Source: an uncultured Eubacteriales bacterium (GTDB lineage: Bacteria > Bacillota > Clostridia > Lachnospirales > Lachnospiraceae). Taken from it: a stretch of 64,000 bases of DNA. The stretch covers positions 108,280 to 172,279 of the forward strand of contig CASFID010000014.1 of assembly GCA_949294665.1 (NCBI GenBank). The letters are read 5' to 3'. The position numbers and the translations under genes were made by a program. Shown here piece by piece: positions 2,535-54,067 of this stretch. Positions within the stretch are counted from its first letter, which is position 1; every line of letters starts with the position of its first letter. Below the pieces are notes generated by a model. That model saw nothing but the letters and a program-made list of their open reading frames with translations, was not told the origin of the DNA and ran no database searches.

Positions 2535-3530
2535 CTACATAGACTGTGCCTGAACTGCGGTGATCGCGACTACGCCTGCGATATCCTCGGCGCTGCATCC
2601 TCTCGACAAGTCGTTGACCGGAGCGGCGATCCCCTGTGTGAGCGGGCCGTATGCTTCTGCCTTGCCAAGTCTCTGAACGAGTTTGTATCCGATATTTCCC
2701 GCATCCAGATCCGGGAAGATCAGGACGTTGGCATGTCCTGCCACGTCGCTGCCGGGCGCCTTGGAAGCCCCCACTTCCGGCACGATCGCCGCATCAAGCT
2801 GGAGTTCGCCATCCAGCTTCAGCTCCGGCGCCAGCTCGTGAGCGATCTTCGTCGCCTCTACGACCTTATCTACATCTGCATGCTTGGCGCTTCCCTTGGT
2901 GGAGTGGGAAAGCATGGCCACGATCGGCTCGTGGCCTGTAAGAATACGGAAAGATTCTGCGGAAGACACCGCGATATTCGCCAGTTTCTCCGGATCCGGG
3001 TTCTGTTCCAGGCCGGCATCGCTGAAAATAAATGTTCCATTGTCTCCCATATCGCAGTCCGGTACTACCATAAGGAAGAAAGCGGATACGAGCTTTGTGC
3101 CGGGCTTTGTCTTGAGAATCTGCAGACACGGACGCAGCGTATCAGCCGATGAATGACATGCTCCGGAAACCATGCCGTCTGCATCCCCCATCTTTACCAT
3201 CATCACTCCATAGTACAGATAATTGTTCAGGAGCAGTTCCCTTGCCTGTTCTTCCGTCATGCCCTTTTTCTGTCTGAGCTCGACAAGCTTTGCGATGTAA
3301 CCTTCCGTCTTATCGCTTGTCGCCGGATCCACGATCACCGCGCCGGAAATATCATATGTACCTCTGTTCTTCTCGATCTCCTCCTCGCTGCCCACAAGGA
3401 TCAGATCCGCAATCCCGTCTCTGAGGACCGATTCAGCAGCTTTGTAAGTTCTCTCATCCTCTGTCTCCGGCAGGACGATCGTCTTTTTGTCCGCTTTCGC
3501 CCGCGCCTTGATCTCATCAATAAATCCCAT
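2535..3530 (-). CDS. pta: Phosphate acetyltransferase
   Basis: A 331-residue short-form phosphotransacetylase (acetyl-CoA plus phosphate to acetyl-phosphate and CoA), without the N-terminal regulatory domain of long enterobacterial enzymes. Typical blocks include YGVMMVKMGDADGMVSGA near 115-132 and the glycine-rich C-terminus with PVNDLSRGCS. I chose the ATG at 3530 (MGFIDEIKARAK) because an AAAGGTGG site lies about 11 bp upstream; an in-frame ATG at 3551 has no site. It is first in the pta-ackA unit. Confidence 0.96.
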   Translation of the reverse strand: MGFIDEIKARAKADKKTIVLPETEDERTYKAAESVLRDGIADLILVGSEEEIEKNRGTYDISGAVIVDPATSDKTEGYIAKLVELRQKKGMTEEQARELLLNNYLYYGVMMVKMGDADGMVSGACHSSADTLRPCLQILKTKPGTKLVSAFFLMVVPDCDMGDNGTFIFSDAGLEQNPDPEKLANIAVSSAESFRILTGHEPIVAMLSHSTKGSAKHADVDKVVEATKIAHELAPELKLDGELQLDAAIVPEVGASKAPGSDVAGHANVLIFPDLDAGNIGYKLVQRLGKAEAYGPLTQGIAAPVNDLSRGCSAEDIAGVVAITAVQAQSM

Positions 3531-43874: not shown

Positions 43875-44495
43875 ATGGACAGTATTATATTTGACGTCGA
43901 CGGCACGATCTGGGATTCTTCCATATCAGTAGCCGCCTCCTGGAATCAGGCGATAAGGGAAAACTCTGATCTTGATATCACCCTCGATCCGGTCTCCCTG
44001 AGCAGGCTTTTCGGGAAGACGATGACAGAGATCGCGGACGCGCTCTTCCCCTCTTTGACGCCCGCCGGGCGCATGGGACTGCTGGAAGCATGCTTCGAGG
44101 CCGAGAACCGATATCTGGAGGAACACCCCGGCGTCCTGTACGAGGGCGTCGCCAAAACGATAAAAGAACTTGCCAGAAGATACCCTCTCTATATCGTAAG
44201 CAACTGCCAGTGCGGCTACATAGAAGTCATGCTCCGGGTGACCGGACTGGAGCCCTATATCAAAGACCATCTGTGCTTCGGGGAAACGCAGGTGTGCAAA
44301 GGAGAGACGATCCGCATGCTTGTCGTGAGAAATGAGCTGAAAAGCCCCGTCTATGTGGGTGACACACAGGGAGATGCAGATTCATGCAGACTTGCCGGCG
44401 TACCGTTTATCTTCGCCGAATACGGATTCGGAGACGTACCTGACGCCAAAATGCGAATCCGAAGATTTTCTGATCTGGAGTCAATATGCGCTTGA
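43875..44495 (+). CDS. HAD-superfamily hydrolase (phosphoglycolate-phosphatase-like)
   Basis: A 206-residue HAD phosphatase. Motif I is DSIIFDVDGTIWDSS with the nucleophile Asp near residue 7, motif II is the S/T in LYIVSNCQ near 115, and motif IV is VYVGDTQGDADSC near 160. The helical cap between 15 and 85 marks a C1-type enzyme acting on a small phosphate ester. The start follows GGAGAACTC. A CGCGTCT/AGACGCG hairpin (43797-43815) lies upstream without a T-run. The stop overlaps the -35 of the next operon. Confidence 0.88.
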   Translation: MDSIIFDVDGTIWDSSISVAASWNQAIRENSDLDITLDPVSLSRLFGKTMTEIADALFPSLTPAGRMGLLEACFEAENRYLEEHPGVLYEGVAKTIKELARRYPLYIVSNCQCGYIEVMLRVTGLEPYIKDHLCFGETQVCKGETIRMLVVRNELKSPVYVGDTQGDADSCRLAGVPFIFAEYGFGDVPDAKMRIRRFSDLESICA

Positions 44496-44543
44496 CACCG
44501 GATAGTTATTTAAGTATATTAGTAATATCTAAATTGCTTAAAT
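44492..44543 (+). promoter_or_regulatory. Promoter and nested palindromic operator of the ferredoxin-ArsR operon
   Basis: TTGACA (44492-44497), exact 17-bp spacer, TATATT (44515-44520). The -10 and start region are covered by the perfect palindrome ATATTAGTAATAT (44516-44528), and outer arms ATTTAAG (44508-44514) and CTTAAAT (44537-44543) add a second symmetry. ArsR-family repressors bind A+T-rich dyads of this kind at the -10. The operon encodes an ArsR protein, so autorepression is inferred. Confidence 0.75.
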
Positions 44544-44558
44544 ATGGAGGCTGTATAA

Positions 44559-44768
44559 ATGGCAACATCTCGTAAAATCGCTACTATCGGCAAAGAATGT
44601 GTCGCCTGCGGATGCTGTGTCCTCGCCTGCCCGAGAGAGGCAGTTCAGATCGCATGGGGGATCTCGGCCCGCGTCAATCCGGACAAATGCGTCGGCTGCG
44701 GAAAATGCGCAAAAGTTTGTCCCGCAGCAGTGATCGCTATCGCAGAAAGGAGTGTCGCAGCAGTATGA
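44559..44768 (+). CDS. 2[4Fe-4S] ferredoxin-like protein
   Basis: A 69-residue electron carrier with two CxxCxxCxxxCP motifs: C14, C17, C20, C24 and C44, C47, C50, C54. There is an extra Cys19 in the first motif (CGCC). Unlike most small clostridial ferredoxins, which begin directly with AYVI-type sequence, it has a 10-residue basic N-terminus. GGAGG lies 8 bp before the ATG. Its stop overlaps the next start (ATGA), so it is tightly coupled to the membrane protein. Confidence 0.92.
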   Translation: MATSRKIATIGKECVACGCCVLACPREAVQIAWGISARVNPDKCVGCGKCAKVCPAAVIAIAERSVAAV

Positions 44769-45403
44769 GGAAGACGAAAAAGAAATGGTCGGATTATCTT
44801 TGGATCGCTGAACTTTGTTATCTGTTTTTGGGACTGTTTAATATCCTTTTCGCGTGGCTGGGGATGCTTTTTTTCTCTATTCCCCTCATCCTGTCCTTAT
44901 TCGGAGGCGATAAGGCATACTGCAACCGCTACTGCGGGCGTGGACAGCTTCTGGGACTCCTTGGCGAAAAGCTGAAGCTCTCAAGAAATACTCCTCCGCC
45001 CCGATTCCTGCGCAGTCTGTGGTTCCGGTACGGTTTTCTGACATTCTTTATGATCATGTTCTGTCTGATGCTGTTCAGCACCTACCGGGTATTTACAGGA
45101 GCTCCCCTCTCTCAGACTGTTACCCTTCTGTGGGCGTTTAAACTCCCATGGCAGTGGGCGGACGTAAGTTTCGTATCCCCGTGGATCGGACAGTTTGCTT
45201 TTGGCTTTTTCGGAGTTATGCTCACCTCCACTGTCCTGGGGCTTTTGACAATGATACTGTTCCGTCCCAGATCATGGTGCGTGTACTGTCCGATGGGAAC
45301 GATGACACAGGGGATCTGCAGACTAAAGAATGGAAAGAAGGCAAAAGAAGATGGAAAAACAGGCAAAGGAAATCGCAGAACTGTTGAAATTACTGGCCAA
45401 TGA
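44765..45403 (+). CDS. Membrane iron-sulfur protein, NapH/CcoG-like (Fer4_5 motifs)
   Basis: A 212-residue membrane protein with about four or five hydrophobic helices (roughly 17-47, 86-108, 138-167). Two cysteine motifs flank the helices: C53-x3-C57 (AYCNRYCGRGQLLG) and C172-x2-C175-P (WCVYCPMGTMTQ), with C185 after. This resembles the membrane halves of NapH, NosR and CcoG, which pass electrons between quinol and soluble ferredoxin domains. Here the ferredoxin domains are missing and the gene next door encodes a ferredoxin. The last 53 bp overlap arsR. The reaction is unknown. Confidence 0.82.
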   Translation: MRKTKKKWSDYLWIAELCYLFLGLFNILFAWLGMLFFSIPLILSLFGGDKAYCNRYCGRGQLLGLLGEKLKLSRNTPPPRFLRSLWFRYGFLTFFMIMFCLMLFSTYRVFTGAPLSQTVTLLWAFKLPWQWADVSFVSPWIGQFAFGFFGVMLTSTVLGLLTMILFRPRSWCVYCPMGTMTQGICRLKNGKKAKEDGKTGKGNRRTVEITGQ

Positions 45404-45644
45404 GCACCGGCTGCTGATCTTATGCGCGCTGCTCAGAGAGAAACGCACCGTAGGAGAAATCCACCAATACACTCCCGGTATCACGTCTTCCGCTCTGTCC
45501 CAGCACCTGAGCCAGATGAAGACGGCCGGTGTCCTCTCCTCAGAAAAAGTGGGAATGAATGTGTTTTACTGGATCCGGGACGAACGGGTGATCGCCCTGA
45601 TGGGGGCTATCAAAAAAGAATATTGCCAGAACGAAACGGGGTGA
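45351..45644 (+). CDS. ArsR-family repressor with SqrR/BigR-like cysteine pair
   Basis: A 97-residue winged-helix ArsR/SmtB protein: LLKLLANEHRLLILCALL (12-28), recognition helix SSALSQHLSQMKTAGVLSS (46-64) and wing VGMNVFYWI. It lacks the CxCxxC metal motif of classical ArsR. It has Cys25 in helix 2 and Cys92 near the C-terminus (KKEYC), the positions and spacing known to me for the persulfide sensors SqrR and BigR. I chose the ATG at 45351; it lies within the end of the membrane gene. Likely represses its own operon and is relieved by sulfane sulfur or oxidation (inference). Confidence 0.9.
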   Translation: MEKQAKEIAELLKLLANEHRLLILCALLREKRTVGEIHQYTPGITSSALSQHLSQMKTAGVLSSEKVGMNVFYWIRDERVIALMGAIKKEYCQNETG

Positions 45645-45665
45645 CATCTTTTGTCACCCCGTTTT
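45634..45665 (+). terminator. Terminator of the ferredoxin-ArsR operon
   Basis: Stem AAACGGGGTGACA (45634-45646) with TGTCACCCCGTTTT (45652-45665). The arsR stop codon TGA (45642-45644) lies inside the 5' arm. It is followed within 3 bp by the 3' end of the opposing tRNA gene. Confidence 0.85.
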
Positions 45666-45667
45666 CA

Positions 45668-45749
45668 TGCCGATGGCCGGACTCGAACCGGCACGGATCG
45701 CTCCGCTTGATTTTGAGTCAAGTGCGTCTGCCAATTCCGCCACATCGGC
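45668..45749 (-). tRNA. tRNA-Leu, anticodon CAA
   Basis: An 82-nt class II tRNA. The acceptor GCCGATG pairs with CATCGGC, the anticodon stem is CTTGA/TCAAG and the loop CTCAAAA gives anticodon CAA (complement of 45713-45715), reading UUG. The variable arm is CGGAGCGATCCG and the T-loop GTTCGAG. CCA is not encoded. Confidence 0.95.
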
Positions 45750-45757
45750 GCATATAT

Positions 45758-45816
45758 GTTCTCCGGCATCCGCCGGAGAACGTTTAGATTATATCACTAA
45801 AAAATATACCGTGCAA
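45758..45816 (-). promoter_or_regulatory. Promoter and 5' leader hairpin of tRNA-Leu(CAA)
   Basis: Minus-strand TTGCAC (45811-45816), 17-bp spacer, TATAAT (45788-45793). A hairpin GTTCTCCGGC/GCCGGAGAAC (45758-45781) lies between the promoter and the tRNA and should form in the precursor, perhaps guiding processing. Confidence 0.75.
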
Positions 45817-45870
45817 CCATTATTTTTCATCAGCTTTCCGGTCGCGACAGTTCAACCCGCGCCATTCGTA

Positions 45871-45913
45871 AAACTGCGCTCCGCGCTTATCGCGGCTGCC
45901 GCCGCTGTTTTAC
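45871..45913 (-). terminator. Probable terminator of rhomboid-pyk-lysA
   Basis: An imperfect G+C-rich inverted repeat with outer arms AAAACxGCG and CGCxGTTTT (45871-45913) and inner GCGC/GCGG segments, followed on the minus strand by TTTTACG. It lies directly after the lysA stop. Symmetry is imperfect, hence the lower confidence. Confidence 0.5.
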
Positions 45914-47182
45914 TCATTTAAGTTTCTTCCCGATCTCAAAGCAGTCGAATGTGGCAAAGTAATCCGCAGGCGTCTCCGCTCTCCGGATGAGCTGCACGCT
46001 TCCGTCCTCTTTCAGGAGAAGTTCCGCTGATTTGAGCTTTCCATTGTAATTATATCCCATGGAGAACCCGTGCGCCCCGGCGTCGTGTATCACAAGATAA
46101 TCACCGATGTCGATCTTCGGCAGCATCCTGTCGATTGCAAACTTGTCGTTATTCTCGCACAGAGAGCCCGTCACATCGTATTTGTGATCGCACGGAGCGT
46201 CCTCTTTTCCGAGCACTGTGATGTGATGATATGCGCCGTACATGGCCGGGCGCATCAGATTCACAGCGCATGCATCGACTCCGATATAATCCTTATACGT
46301 TTTTTTCTCGTGGATGGCTTTTGTCACAAGGCAGCCGTAAGGCCCCATCATGTAACGCCCCAGTTCTGTGTAGATCGCCACGTCCCCCATCCCCGCCGGG
46401 ACAAGTACTTCCTCATAGACTCTTCGCACACCTTCTCCGATCGCCCGGATATCGTTTGGCTCCTGATCCGGGCGGTAAGGGATACCGATGCCGCCCGACA
46501 GATTGATGAAGCTGATATGGACGCCCGCCTCTTTCGCGAGTTTCACCGCCTGCTCGAACAGGATTTTTGCGAGCATTGGATAGTAATCGTTTGTCACAGT
46601 GTTGCTGGCGAGGAACGCATGGATCCCGAACTCCTTTGCCCCCTTGCTCTTGAGCGTCCGGAATGCTTCCAGGATCTGTTCGGAAGTCATGCCGTATTTC
46701 GCGTCCCCCGGATTATCCATAATATCATTGCTGATCTTAAAGAGGCCGCCGGGGTTGTAACGGCAGCTTATTTTCTCCGGGATATGACCGATCGCTTTCT
46801 CAAGGAAATCGATATGTGTGATATCATCCAGGTTGATGATCGCCCCGAGCTTATCAGCCAGGATGAAATCCTCCGCCGGCGTATCGTTGGAAGAAAACAT
46901 GATGTCCTCTCCCCGGATATCGAGCGCATCTGATAGCATCAGCTCCGTATAAGAGGAACAGTCGCACCCGCATCCGTACTCCTTCAGAATGTCTATAAGA
47001 AACGGATTCGGCGTGGCCTTTACCGCGAAATACTCCTTATATCCCGGATTCCACGCGAAAGCTTCCTTGAGCGCCTTTGCGTTCTCCCGGATCCCTCTTT
47101 CATCATAGAGATGAAACGGCGTTGGATATGTCTTTACGATCTCTTCTATCTGTTCCTTTGTCACAAACGGTTTCTTTATCAT
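45914..47182 (-). CDS. lysA: Diaminopimelate decarboxylase
   Basis: A 422-residue PLP decarboxylase of the alanine racemase fold (group IV). It converts meso-diaminopimelate to lysine. The PLP lysine is in YFAVKATPNPFLIDIL near 52-68, the glycine loop NLSGGIGIPY near 228, ELGRYM near 272 and CAVNLMRPAMYGAYHHI near 308. Carboxynorspermidine decarboxylases are a related alternative, but the C-terminal CEN and DAGAH motifs fit LysA. It lies 27 bp downstream of pyk in the same operon. Confidence 0.86.
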   Translation of the reverse strand: MIKKPFVTKEQIEEIVKTYPTPFHLYDERGIRENAKALKEAFAWNPGYKEYFAVKATPNPFLIDILKEYGCGCDCSSYTELMLSDALDIRGEDIMFSSNDTPAEDFILADKLGAIINLDDITHIDFLEKAIGHIPEKISCRYNPGGLFKISNDIMDNPGDAKYGMTSEQILEAFRTLKSKGAKEFGIHAFLASNTVTNDYYPMLAKILFEQAVKLAKEAGVHISFINLSGGIGIPYRPDQEPNDIRAIGEGVRRVYEEVLVPAGMGDVAIYTELGRYMMGPYGCLVTKAIHEKKTYKDYIGVDACAVNLMRPAMYGAYHHITVLGKEDAPCDHKYDVTGSLCENNDKFAIDRMLPKIDIGDYLVIHDAGAHGFSMGYNYNGKLKSAELLLKEDGSVQLIRRAETPADYFATFDCFEIGKKLK

Positions 47183-49736: not shown

Positions 49737-49819
49737 GTAAATTGCTGCAAAATGCGAGAATGCATTTAATAGGAAATAACTCATATAAATATTTACTACA
49801 AAAGATTGGAGATCACACA

Positions 49820-52800
49820 ATGAATCTGAAAGAATTACATACTCTGGGAATCGATATCGGTTCTACAACTGTAAAGATTGCGATTCTGGATGAGGAAAAC
49901 GAGGTCCTCTTCTCTGACTATGAACGTCATTATGCAAATATCCAGGAGACGCTGTCTGACCTTCTCGGACGGGCGCTCTATAAACTCGGGGCGATCCATG
50001 TCTCTCCGGTCATTACCGGAAGCGGAGGTCTTACGCTCGCCAAGAATCTGGGCGTTCCCTTTGTCCAGGAGGTTATTGCAGTCTCTACGGCGCTGCAGGA
50101 CTATGCGCCGCAGACAGACGTAGCCATCGAGCTGGGCGGCGAGGACGCCAAGATCATCTATTTTGAAGGAGGCAATGTGGAACAGAGAATGAACGGCGTC
50201 TGTGCCGGGGGTACAGGCTCCTTTATCGATCAGATGGCTTCTCTGCTCCAGACGGATGCCTCCGGATTAAATGAATACGCGAAGAATTACAAGGCGCTTT
50301 ACTCCATCGCGGCACGCTGCGGTGTGTTTGCCAAATCTGATATCCAGCCGCTCATCAATGACGGCGCGTCGAAAGAAGATCTTGCCGCTTCTATCTTTCA
50401 GGCGGTAGTAAACCAGACGATCAGCGGACTTGCCTGCGGAAAACCGATCCGTGGACATGTGGCGTTTCTGGGCGGTCCTCTCCACTTTCTGTCAGAGCTC
50501 AGGGCTGCGTTTATCCGCACGCTGAAGCTGGACGACGAGCATATCATCGCTCCGAACCACTCGCATCTGTTCGCCGCCATCGGTTCCGCGCTGAACTCAA
50601 AGAAAGACACCCCGGTGGCGCTCCAGGAGCTTCAGAACAGGTTGGCGAGAAAAGTCAAGATGGAGATCGAGGTAGACCGCCTCGAGCCTTTATTCGCAAC
50701 AAATGCCGAATATGAGGAGTTCATCGCCCGTCACGCAAAACATCAGGTGCCTGTAAAAGACCTCTCCACATATCATGGCAAGGCCTTTCTCGGCATTGAC
50801 GCAGGTTCCACGACGACAAAAGCAGCTCTTGTAGGCGAAGACGGCACACTGCTGTATTCCTTCTATCACAATAACGACGGAGATCCTCTCGGTACGACGA
50901 TCTCTGCAATCAAGGATATCTACGAAAAGCTTCCGGAGGGCGTGGAGATCGTGCACTCCTGCTCCACCGGCTACGGGGAGGCGCTCATTAAAGCCGCTCT
51001 CATGCTGGACGAGGGCGAGGTCGAGACAGTTGCCCACTACTATGCCGCCGCTTTCTTCGAGCCCGACGTGGACTGTATCCTGGACATCGGCGGACAGGAT
51101 ATGAAATGCATCAAGATCAAGAATCAGACGGTCGACAGCGTGCAGCTCAACGAGGCATGCTCCTCCGGCTGCGGTTCATTCATCGAGACTTTTGCCAAAT
51201 CGCTGAACTATACGGTGGAGGACTTCGCACATGAGGCCCTCTATGCGCAGAATCCGATCGATCTTGGCACACGCTGTACGGTGTTCATGAACTCCAAGGT
51301 AAAGCAGGCGCAGAAAGAGGGAGCGTCTGTGGCAGATATCTCCGCCGGACTTGCCTACTCCGTCATTAAGAATGCGCTCTTTAAAGTCATCAAAGTTTCC
51401 AGCGCGTCAGAGCTTGGGAACCACATCGTTGTACAGGGCGGTACATTCTACAACAATGCGGTCTTAAGAAGTTTCGAGAAGATCGCCGACTGCGAGGCGA
51501 TCCGCCCGGACATCGCGGGTATCATGGGTGCGTTCGGCGCGGCCCTGATCGCACGCGAGAGATACACGGACTGCGAAGGCACAACGATGCTCTCCATCGC
51601 GGACATCAAATCCATGGAATACTCCACAACGATGACGAAATGCCGCGGCTGCACGAACACATGCCGTCTGACGATCAACCACTTCAGCGGAGGCCGCAAA
51701 TTCATCACGGGGAACCGCTGTGAGCGCGGACTCGGCAAGGAAAAGTCAAAGAACACGATGCCGAACCTGTTCGACTATAATCTGCACCGCTACTTCGACT
51801 ATGAACCGCTCTCCGAAGAGGAGGCAAAGCACGGTGTGATCGGTATCCCCCGCGTTCTGAACATGTACGAGAACTATCCGTTCTGGTTTACATTTTTTAC
51901 AAAGCTGGGATTCCGGGTGGTGCTCTCCCCTGCTTCGACGAGGAAGATCTACGAACTGGGCATCGAATCCATCCCAAGCGAGTCCGAGTGTTATCCGGCG
52001 AAACTTGCGCACGGACATGTGCAGTGGCTGATCAACAACGGTGTAAAACACATCTTCTACCCGTCTGTTCCCTATGAGCGCAACGAGTTTGAAGATGCCA
52101 ACAACCATTACAACTGCCCGATCGTGACCTCCTACCCGGAGAATATCAAGAACAATATGGATCCGATCGTAAAGGGAGAAGTTGATTTCATCCATCCTTT
52201 CCTCTCGTTCCAGAGCGAGGAGACGCTCTCCTACCGTCTGATCGAGGAACTGGGAACGAAGTTCTCTTTAAGCGAGAACGAGATCCGCTCCGCCGTACAC
52301 GACGCATGGACAGAGCTGGCCGCGTGCCGTCAGGATATGCGCGACAAGGGCGAGGAGACGATCCGATTCTTAAATGAGACCGGGAACCGGGGCATTGTGC
52401 TGGCAGGACGTCCGTATCACATCGATCCGGAGGTCAACCACGGTCTGCCCGAGATGATCACATCATATAATATCGCCGTGCTGACTGAGGACTCCGTCTC
52501 CCATCTGCATCAGGTGGAGCGTCCCTTAAATGTCATGGACCAGTGGATGTACCACTCCCGTCTGTACGCTGCGGCAAACTATGTAAAAACAACGGAGAAT
52601 CTGGACCTGATCCAGCTCAACTCATTCGGATGCGGCCTGGACGCCGTGACTACAGACGAGGTGGCCGATATCCTGACCGGCTCCGACAAGATCTATACGA
52701 CACTGAAGATCGACGAGGTCAACAACCTTGGCGCGGCCCGCATCCGCGTGCGCTCCCTGCTCGCCGCCATCCGCGTACGCGAGCAGAAGAAAGCCGAGCG

Positions 52801-54067
52801 CACCATCCGCCCGGCTTCCATCGAGAAAGTGCCGTTTACAAAAGAGATGCGCAAGACGCACACGATCCTCTGCCCGCAGATGTCTCCGATCCACTTCGAG
52901 CTTCTGGAGCCTGCTTTTAAAGCTGCCGGGTATAAGATCGAAGTGCTCCCCAACGACAACCGCCAGGCAGTGGACATGGGGCTGAAATATGTAAACAACG
53001 ACGCCTGCTATCCGTCCCTCATCGTCGTCGGACAGATCATGGACGCGATCCTCTCCGGCAACTATGACACGGATCATCTCGCTGTCATCATCAGCCAGAC
53101 GGGCGGAGGCTGCCGTGCCTCCAACTACATCGGCTTTATCCGCCGGGCGCTCAAGAAAGCGGGATACGGACATATCCCGGTCATCTCCATCAACTTAAGC
53201 GGTCTGGAGGCGAACCCGGGATTCAAGATCACCCTGCCTCTCGCCGTGCGCATCGCATACGCTGCCGTATTCGGGGATATCTTTATGAAATGTGTCTACC
53301 GGATGCGTCCCTACGAGGCGGTTCCCGGCACGACAAACGCAGTGCACCGCAAATGGGTGGAGGTCGTCCAGAAGTTTGTATCCGAGGGGTACCCGTCACG
53401 CCGGAAGTTCAAGAAGCTCTGCCGTGACATCATCAACGACTTTGACAATATCGAGATCCTGGATATTAAGAAACCGCGCGTGGGCGTCGTCGGCGAGATC
53501 CTTGTGAAGTTCCTGCCCGCCGCCAACAATCATCTGGTGGATCTTCTGGAGGCGGAGGGAGCCGAGGCGGTCGTTCCCGACCTGATCGACTTCATGCAGT
53601 ACTGCTTCTACAATCAGAATTTCAAGGTGTCCCACCTTGGATTCAAGAAGACAAAAGCGCTGGTCGGGAACCTGGGCATCAAGGCCGTAGAGTGGCTGCG
53701 CTCCCCTGCTTCCAGGGCATTTGCCGAGAGTAAGCACTTCGATCCGCCGGCACATATCGAAGATCTGGCGAAGATGGCATCCGAGATCGTTTCCATCGGA
53801 AACCAGACCGGCGAGGGATGGTTCCTCACTGGGGAAATGCTCGAACTCATCCACAGCGGCGCCGGAAATATCGTGTGTACACAGCCGTTCGCCTGCCTGC
53901 CAAACCACGTGGTCGGCAAGGGAGTCATCAAAGAACTTCGGAGACGGCATCCCGAGTCAAACGTTGTGGCGATCGACTTTGATCCGGGCGCAAGTGAAGT
54001 AAACCAGTTGAACAGGATCAAACTGATGCTCTCCACAGCATTTAAAAATCTGGAAAAAGCAAATTAA
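49820..54067 (+). CDS. Fused 2-hydroxyacyl-CoA dehydratase activase-like protein
   Basis: A 1415-residue protein. Two ASKHA ATPase domains in tandem begin with [15 protein letters not shown] (10-24) and [16 protein letters not shown] (about 328-343). Each has cluster-type cysteines ([10 protein letters not shown] and [14 protein letters not shown] and RCTVF) like the [4Fe-4S] activator HgdC. A CxxCxxxC segment ([11 protein letters not shown]) follows near 605, then DUF2229 and an HgdB-like C-terminus. Family proteins are large and widespread in Clostridia, but their substrates are mostly unknown. The ATG at 49820 follows GGAGATCA. Monocistronic. Confidence 0.9.

Follow-up and report, generated by a model that had tools for sequence, protein, structure and literature searches.

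A stretch of 64,000 nucleotides from an uncultured Eubacteriales bacterium of the Lachnospiraceae (contig CASFID010000014.1; its full length is called the window here) carries three overlapping genes for a small ferredoxin, a membrane protein with two cysteine motifs and an ArsR-family regulator. What might such a ferredoxin and membrane protein do together, and to what does the regulator answer? An earlier note on this DNA had proposed a new electron-transfer module responding to sulfide or oxidative stress. With moderate confidence, we read the unit as a self-regulated, persulfide-responsive operon for ferredoxin-fed electron transfer at the membrane, serving thiol and sulfane-sulfur redox. 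The best-supported step of this reading is local regulation by a thiol/persulfide-type ArsR, for which the regulator and its putative operator provide good support; coupling of the ferredoxin-membrane protein pair to thiol/sulfane-sulfur redox draws its support from the genes beside its relatives, together with the type of regulator.

A conserved two-gene core with exchangeable regulators

The three genes form a genuine unit on the forward strand (Table 1). The ferredoxin and membrane protein genes are joined by an ATGA overlap, and arsR overlaps the membrane protein gene by 53 nt counted from its ATG at 45351 (another possible start is the ATG at 45330). Pfam matches in the three products are Fer4-type domains, Fer4_5 and HTH_5. 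The ratio of nonsynonymous to synonymous substitution rates (dN/dS) indicates purifying selection on the membrane protein (0.07-0.10 in four of six comparisons) and on ArsR (0.08-0.10 in three of six), the remaining comparisons being saturated in dS; the ferredoxin gave 0.11-0.32 where dS was finite, and some of the finite dS values behind all these figures are high.

Table 1. Features of the three-gene unit (window positions)
Feature	Position	Strand	Description
Sigma-70-like promoter	44492..44520	+	TTGACA-N17-TATATT; 11/12 consensus positions
Candidate ArsR operator	44513..44538	+	imperfect palindrome AGTATATTAG-N6-CTAAATTGCT, overlapping the -10 box
Ferredoxin gene	44559..44768	+	69 aa; 2[4Fe-4S], eight ligand cysteines, two CxxCxxCxxxC sites
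NapH-like membrane protein gene	44765..45403	+	212 aa; CX3CGRG (C53, C57), WCX2CP (C172, C175), plus C185
ArsR-family regulator gene	45351..45644	+	97 aa; Cys25/Cys92 pair as in persulfide sensors
Terminator-like hairpin	45633..45665	+	contains the arsR stop codon

One genome per species was scanned, which gave 29 loci whose membrane protein is 61-91% identical; they come from Clostridia, Negativicutes, one Spirochaetia record and one Synergistaceae record. The ferredoxin gene adjoins the membrane gene in 27 of them; the other two (L023, L038) lie at contig ends. ArsR follows the membrane gene in 19 of the 29, and the tight overlap to which the earlier note had drawn attention is exactly 53 nt in 17 of these, 50 nt in L010 and replaced by a 10-nt gap in L026. 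The trio is the only gene cluster common to more than four of the 29 loci. It stays together in Clostridia as well as in the Spirochaetia record and the Synergistaceae record, and so passes a check that the earlier note had set for it. At one Hungatella locus (L033 4894-5001) the ferredoxin is cut to 35 aa with one cluster site; the genes for the membrane protein and for a thioredoxin come next.

In wider searches the membrane protein had a match in 49 out of 146 relatives (E<=1e-3). Of 392 sampled class genomes, 73 matched at E<=1e-10, and 51 of these still did so at E<=1e-50. Neighbourhoods were fetched for 80 chosen places, which, added to the window and the 29 loci, make 110 loci; from the 146-relative search mainly loci without ArsR were picked, and because loci were selected the ArsR share of the pool cannot be read as a rate for the population. 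After inspection, 17 distant loci (hidden Markov model score <=137), 16 of them with CX3CP as the first motif, were treated separately. The remaining 93 are the core loci, with some redundancy (at least one pair, L027/L119, has identical upstream sequence). A ferredoxin motif lies upstream of the membrane gene in 90 of the 93, a single motif under the strict pattern in 9 of these 90, and the other three loci are cut by contig ends. ArsR follows in 34/93. Within 4.5 kb of the core loci, a CRP/FNR-type gene is found at 20/93 and an HxlR-type gene at 6/93, neither ever together with ArsR. The constant core is therefore ferredoxin plus membrane protein, and ArsR is one of at least three regulator types beside it; the trio of the earlier note is conserved together, but its third member is exchangeable. 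The synteny strongly supports a partnership between ferredoxin and membrane protein.

Regulators also vary at close range. ArsR is present in 5 and absent from 15 of the 20 same-genus loci examined, and in the 24 same-genus genomes with a match there is never more than one. Mapped onto a quick 86-row tree, the ArsR label requires 7 changes, compared with 25.7 in shuffles. This pattern and the position of the Spirochaetia and Synergistaceae records inside ArsR-bearing Clostridia suggest lateral movement of the module, with the proviso that both records are draft or metagenome assemblies and may be contaminated. Carriage by plasmids is possible and rare: 3 of 72,556 plasmid records match, each at less than 60% identity. 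A phage origin found no support: the phage collection searched gave no match, and neither the ferredoxin nor the membrane protein matched a PHROG at E<=1e-3.

The membrane protein has hydrophobic stretches at about residues 16-46 (room for two helices), 91-110 and 141-165. The two stretches that carry the cysteine motifs contain 9 and 11 lysine plus arginine residues versus 2 and 3 aspartate plus glutamate, and the loop between the last two helices contains 1 versus 1. Because of this charge distribution (positive-inside rule), both motifs are predicted to lie in the cytoplasm, in a protein of probably four helices in all. C53, C57, C172 and C175 are present in 89/89 aligned core proteins and C185 in 78 of 89 (10 Ser, 1 gap). 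The motifs were counted in the core loci minus three fragments: the residue after the first, CX3C, is G in 88/90 (D once, A once), and the second is WCX2CP in 90/90.

The window protein scores above the gathering cutoff of Fer4_5 (PF12801; 23.6 versus 22 bits), which 20 of 27 family members match at E<=0.01. No NCBIfam model matches it. TIGR02163 (NapH/MauN) gave no match to the window protein at E<=1, so that this family's cutoff is not reached, and matched 12 of the 27 members weakly at E<=1 (best E 0.003). FMN_bind, the flavin mononucleotide (FMN)-binding domain, was not found in the 212-aa protein at E<=0.1, and no solved structure matched the membrane-protein profile at E<=1. The protein is supported as a distant NapH/Fer4_5 relative whose ferredoxin part resides in a separate gene; presumably CcoG belongs to the same wider group. 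The earlier note had found ferredoxin domains lacking from it, which is borne out, and had ascribed NapH/CcoG-like cysteine motifs to it, which are in fact CX3CG and WCX2CP rather than a CX3CP pair. The protein did not fall into a characterised family of other function.

A persulfide-type ArsR and its candidate operator

The best solved relatives of the ArsR profile are HlyU, YgaV and BigR, with SmtB and NmtR well lower, and both cysteines of the window protein line up in the HlyU and YgaV alignments. Cys25 is present in 34/34 ArsRs and Cys92 in 32/34 (absent from L012 and L163); the invariance of Cys92 in alignment A2 is overstated because L012 was omitted from it. Against family models, the protein scores 64.5 bits for ArsR/SmtB (NF033788), above the cutoff of 55, and 58.5 bits for the BigR equivalog (NF040642), below the cutoff of 155. 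A cysteine pair in helices 2 and 5 defines the persulfide-sensing class, and the window ArsR has this pair when the helix positions given in the available part of PMC10509353 are applied. According to the same portion of that paper, persulfides convert the equivalent cysteine pair of purified HlyU to a tetrasulfide with loss of DNA binding, while H2O2 does not react. The earlier note had called the regulator a redox-type ArsR for sulfide or oxidative stress; the HlyU/YgaV-type cysteine pair agrees with the first half of that description, and a regulator of this kind suggests persulfide, not oxygen, as the signal.

The promoter of the trio ranks first among 9 promoter-like sites found by a consensus scan of 2.4 kb, and most ArsR-type relatives show, by eye, a comparable TTGACA-like/TATATT arrangement upstream. 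At the other end, the hairpin has 14 bp and a folding energy of -24.2 kcal/mol (z -6.9 versus 200 shuffles); its T-rich tail is short and a consensus terminator scan did not call it. The unit therefore appears to have the promoter and, with those reservations, the terminator of its own that the earlier note had ascribed to it.

Upstream of the ferredoxin gene, a palindrome with the consensus AGTATATTAG-N6-CTAAnnTACT lies over the -10 box in the window and in most relatives. A score of at least 16/20 was reached by 27 of 31 ArsR-type upstream regions, compared with 1 of 48 non-ArsR regions and 3 of 620 mononucleotide shuffles. Since the consensus was composed after the ArsR-type sequences had been read, their own score is to some extent circular; the comparison sets are free of that circularity. 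These counts omit 3 of the 34 ArsR loci (L038 and L166 are cut, L120 was not located) and 12 of 60 non-ArsR loci that were not located, including L167. Four ArsR relatives (L130, L133, L135, L142) have a less regular site 68-98 nt before the start, and the one non-ArsR exception, L075, has an operator of 17/20 with no adjacent ArsR gene and clusters with ArsR-type rows on the tree.

The candidate operator occurs once in the window, where 0.13 matches are expected at <=2 mismatches, and the host genome contains one exact site. At <=3 mismatches there are 29 sites genome-wide versus 47 for a reversed-pattern control, so only the exact genomic site is informative. This single site suggests that ArsR is a local autoregulator of its own operon. 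Four of the ArsR loci (L015, L018, L025, L118) have a second small ferredoxin after ArsR, with a first motif that by eye resembles CPQNHxCP in L015.

A proposed role in thiol and sulfane-sulfur redox, and the alternatives

Within 4.5 kb of the 93 core loci we found coenzyme A (CoA)-disulfide-reductase-type (CoADR) genes at 13, thioredoxin at 9, C_GCAxxG_C_C at 9 and CcdA at 4. At least one of these occurs at 25/93 core loci and at 24/59 of those without ArsR. The loci are not independent, as three with CoADR (L146-L148) come from one genus. By an arithmetic estimate for CoADR only, chance would place such a gene within 4.5 kb of about 1% of loci or fewer. The clearest thiol/sulfur clusters are L156, L146-L148 and a Vescimonas fastidiosa plasmid, pMM35_02 (NZ_AP023417.1; L187 2509-6620). 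L156 has, on one strand, CcdA-thioredoxin-FTR catalytic chain (FTRc)-ferredoxin-membrane-thioredoxin-CoADR, and L166 has membrane gene-ArsR-CoADR, also on one strand. On the plasmid the module sits inside a redox gene run (desulfoferrodoxin-DUF6219-rubredoxin-FTRc-ferredoxin-membrane-trxA-flavin adenine dinucleotide (FAD) oxidoreductase of CoADR type), four members of which were domain-checked. The CoADR of L122 is 30% identical to that of the plasmid; the two CoADR neighbours examined have Pyr_redox and Rhodanese domains and score about 510 of 579 bits with the CoA-disulfide reductase model, below its cutoff.

The gene set, the operator-like palindrome, the cysteine pair and the genes beside relatives can be read from sequence; they are consistent with a model in which we infer the persulfide ligand, DNA binding, number of helices, electron flow, its direction and the substrate. 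Reduced ArsR would bind the palindrome over the -10 box and repress the operon. Persulfide or polysulfide would cross-link Cys25 and Cys92 and release ArsR from the DNA, and ferredoxin and membrane protein would then be produced in a coupled ratio. The ferredoxin, charged by fermentative metabolism, would dock on the four-helix membrane protein from the cytoplasmic side and exchange electrons with its CX3C/WCX2CP centre, which may be a dithiol or an Fe-S site. The electrons would reduce sulfane sulfur or disulfides, directly or via thioredoxin/CcdA-type partners, so that the ArsR signal falls. A more specific version, which we advance tentatively, is a membrane reductase for thiols and persulfides that is driven by ferredoxin and independent of quinones. 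In it, a NapH-like scaffold remodelled around a WCX2CP site (dithiol or Fe-S) would pass low-potential electrons to sulfane sulfur or disulfides, and anaerobes would carry it as an exchangeable two-gene core controlled by persulfide-sensing ArsR, CRP/FNR or HxlR. Gut anaerobes live amid sulfide and polysulfide, and to our knowledge little is known of any link from the ferredoxin pool to membrane thiol repair in quinone-less fermenters.

Several observations weigh against the main reading. A thiol/sulfur neighbour lies within 4.5 kb in only 1 of the 34 ArsR loci (L166), and the functional argument therefore comes mostly from relatives without ArsR. Co-occurrence with CoADR-type enzymes, counted with at most three candidates scored per genome (1-3 in each of 176/392 genomes), is modest: 32/51 strongly matching genomes versus 144/341 others (Fisher p 0.007, uncorrected for phylogeny). 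No operator-like site (>=15/20) was seen at 13 CoADR loci that were fetched, of which 11 belong to genomes that also have an ArsR-type unit; this leaves a shared ArsR/CoADR regulon unsupported. The FTR catalytic chain was not detected in the host by a search that found it in 2 of 14 controls and that a divergent chain could escape. Structure prediction from the 27-row alignment had a predicted local distance difference test score (pLDDT) of 49, too poor to use. A UbiA-family protein is encoded in 22 of the 51 strongly matching class genomes (E<=1e-8), indicating a possible quinone role elsewhere. Finally, HlyU-dependent activation in Vibrio cells fell with sulfide and with H2O2 too, in the available part of PMC10509353, and persulfide thus need not be the only signal.

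This last effect also favours a general redox or oxygen-defence module, in which the pair would recycle thioredoxin, rubredoxin or superoxide-reductase systems after exposure to air and ArsR would sense general thiol oxidation. The desulfoferrodoxin, rubredoxin and FTRc genes just upstream on the plasmid fit such a role, as do the thioredoxin and CcdA neighbours and the CRP/FNR-type genes near core loci; the rhodanese domain in both CoADR-type neighbours examined does not, and we consider this explanation rather unlikely, though a serious one. That the membrane protein merely tethers the ferredoxin or matures another redox enzyme seems very improbable: the CX3CP motifs of NapH are described as important for partner attachment in the available text of PMC5928378, but among the 29 loci only the trio recurs as a cluster more than four times.

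A NapH-type quinol:ferredoxin oxidoreductase, linking the quinone pool and ferredoxin, is very improbable. The weak NapH/MauN matches, the Fer4_5 matches and the UbiA-bearing genomes speak for it, and the CX3CG and CX2CP motifs, instead of a CX3CP pair, speak against it. In addition, UbiA was not found in the host genome (E<=1e-3; 14/14 controls detected; genome 95.9% complete), which makes a NapH-style quinol role unlikely in this host. UbiA was likewise not found in 29/51 strongly matching class genomes versus 238/341 others (E<=1e-8). The module-bearing genomes are therefore not poorer in UbiA than the rest, and the module may do without quinones yet is also present where quinones may be made. 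Equally doubtful is a reductase like CcoG, acting on a metal such as Cu(II) and controlled by an ArsR that senses metals: CcoG itself reduces Cu(II) as a membrane Fe-S protein in the part of PMC7558416 available and the window ArsR exceeds the generic metalloregulator cutoff, but its closest relatives are the HlyU group rather than SmtB or NmtR, the four NCBIfam families matched by the 27 members include no CcoG family, and no copper gene was recognised among the neighbours by eye, no systematic search having been made.

Known systems and surrounding features

Compared with known systems, the trio looks like a variant of NapH-like electron-transfer modules, currently without a name, and not NapH itself. 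NapH-like proteins are presented in the available part of PMC8238504 as modules that help to carry electrons to extracytosolic enzymes, in some cases probably from quinol; that published set was chosen by an FMN-binding partner. NapH/MauN proteins share the Fer4_5-type membrane protein, the two cysteine motifs and ferredoxin-type partners. They differ in that NapH carries C-terminal ferredoxin domains in the same chain, whereas the trio's ferredoxin has its own upstream gene, and in having two CX3CP motifs (PMC5928378, as far as available) where the window family has CX3CG and WCX2CP; the best similarity is distant and the host lacks detectable UbiA. RdhC/PceC and NosR, per the same excerpt of PMC5928378, also have a membrane module with two cysteine motifs. 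Theirs is a CX3CP pair, however, the window protein has other motifs and no FMN-binding domain was found in it, and neither a dehalogenase nor a nitrous oxide reductase was recognised by eye among the trio's neighbours.

The regulator resembles BigR, SqrR, HlyU and YgaV in its ArsR fold, in the cysteine pair that aligns with HlyU and YgaV, and in the palindrome at its own operon promoter. It scores below the BigR cutoff and is encoded with an electron-transfer pair, not with sulfide oxidation genes. Enzymes of the CoA persulfide reductase/Npsr type (available part of PMC7969121) and thioredoxin clusters recur beside the pair in non-ArsR relatives but not beside the window trio, and the identity of those neighbours as Npsr depends on domains and below-cutoff CoA-disulfide reductase scores. 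The cupric reductase CcoG (PMC7558416, in part) is likewise a membrane Fe-S protein; the window protein has no CcoG family match and the trio's ferredoxin part is unfused. In agreement with the earlier note, no description or name for a system of this composition was recognised in the titles and abstract openings among the matches listed from open-licence literature. A two-gene core that is widespread, with an operator that can be read and an inducer that is plausible, offers a directly testable entry point, and function could be assigned to proteins whose present annotation is only 4Fe-4S binding protein or hypothetical.

Around the trio, an open reading frame (ORF) at 43875-44495, HAD-like by eye, has its stop just past the start of the -35 box. 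A convergent tRNA-Leu gene (45668-45749) lies beyond the 3' hairpin, and the ORF at 45667-45921 (+), which crosses its opposite strand, is most likely no gene. As to a tRNA-linked insertion of the unit, a tRNA lies within 1.5 kb of 7 of the 110 loci, the window among them (a count without a control set). Further downstream, a 1441-aa ORF (window 49742-54067, +) resembles by eye an acyl-CoA dehydratase activase of the BadF/BcrA/HgdC type. Among the relatives, L169 and L170 encode a DUF6132-type small protein directly before a distant membrane gene of the CX3CP type, about 190-210 nt ahead of it, and L084 does so at 3142-3333; L170 also has a small ferredoxin of the second type, CcdA and thioredoxin nearby. 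At L074 (5121-7265), divergent genes upstream of the ferredoxin-membrane protein pair appear by eye to encode SelD and tRNA 2-selenouridine synthase.

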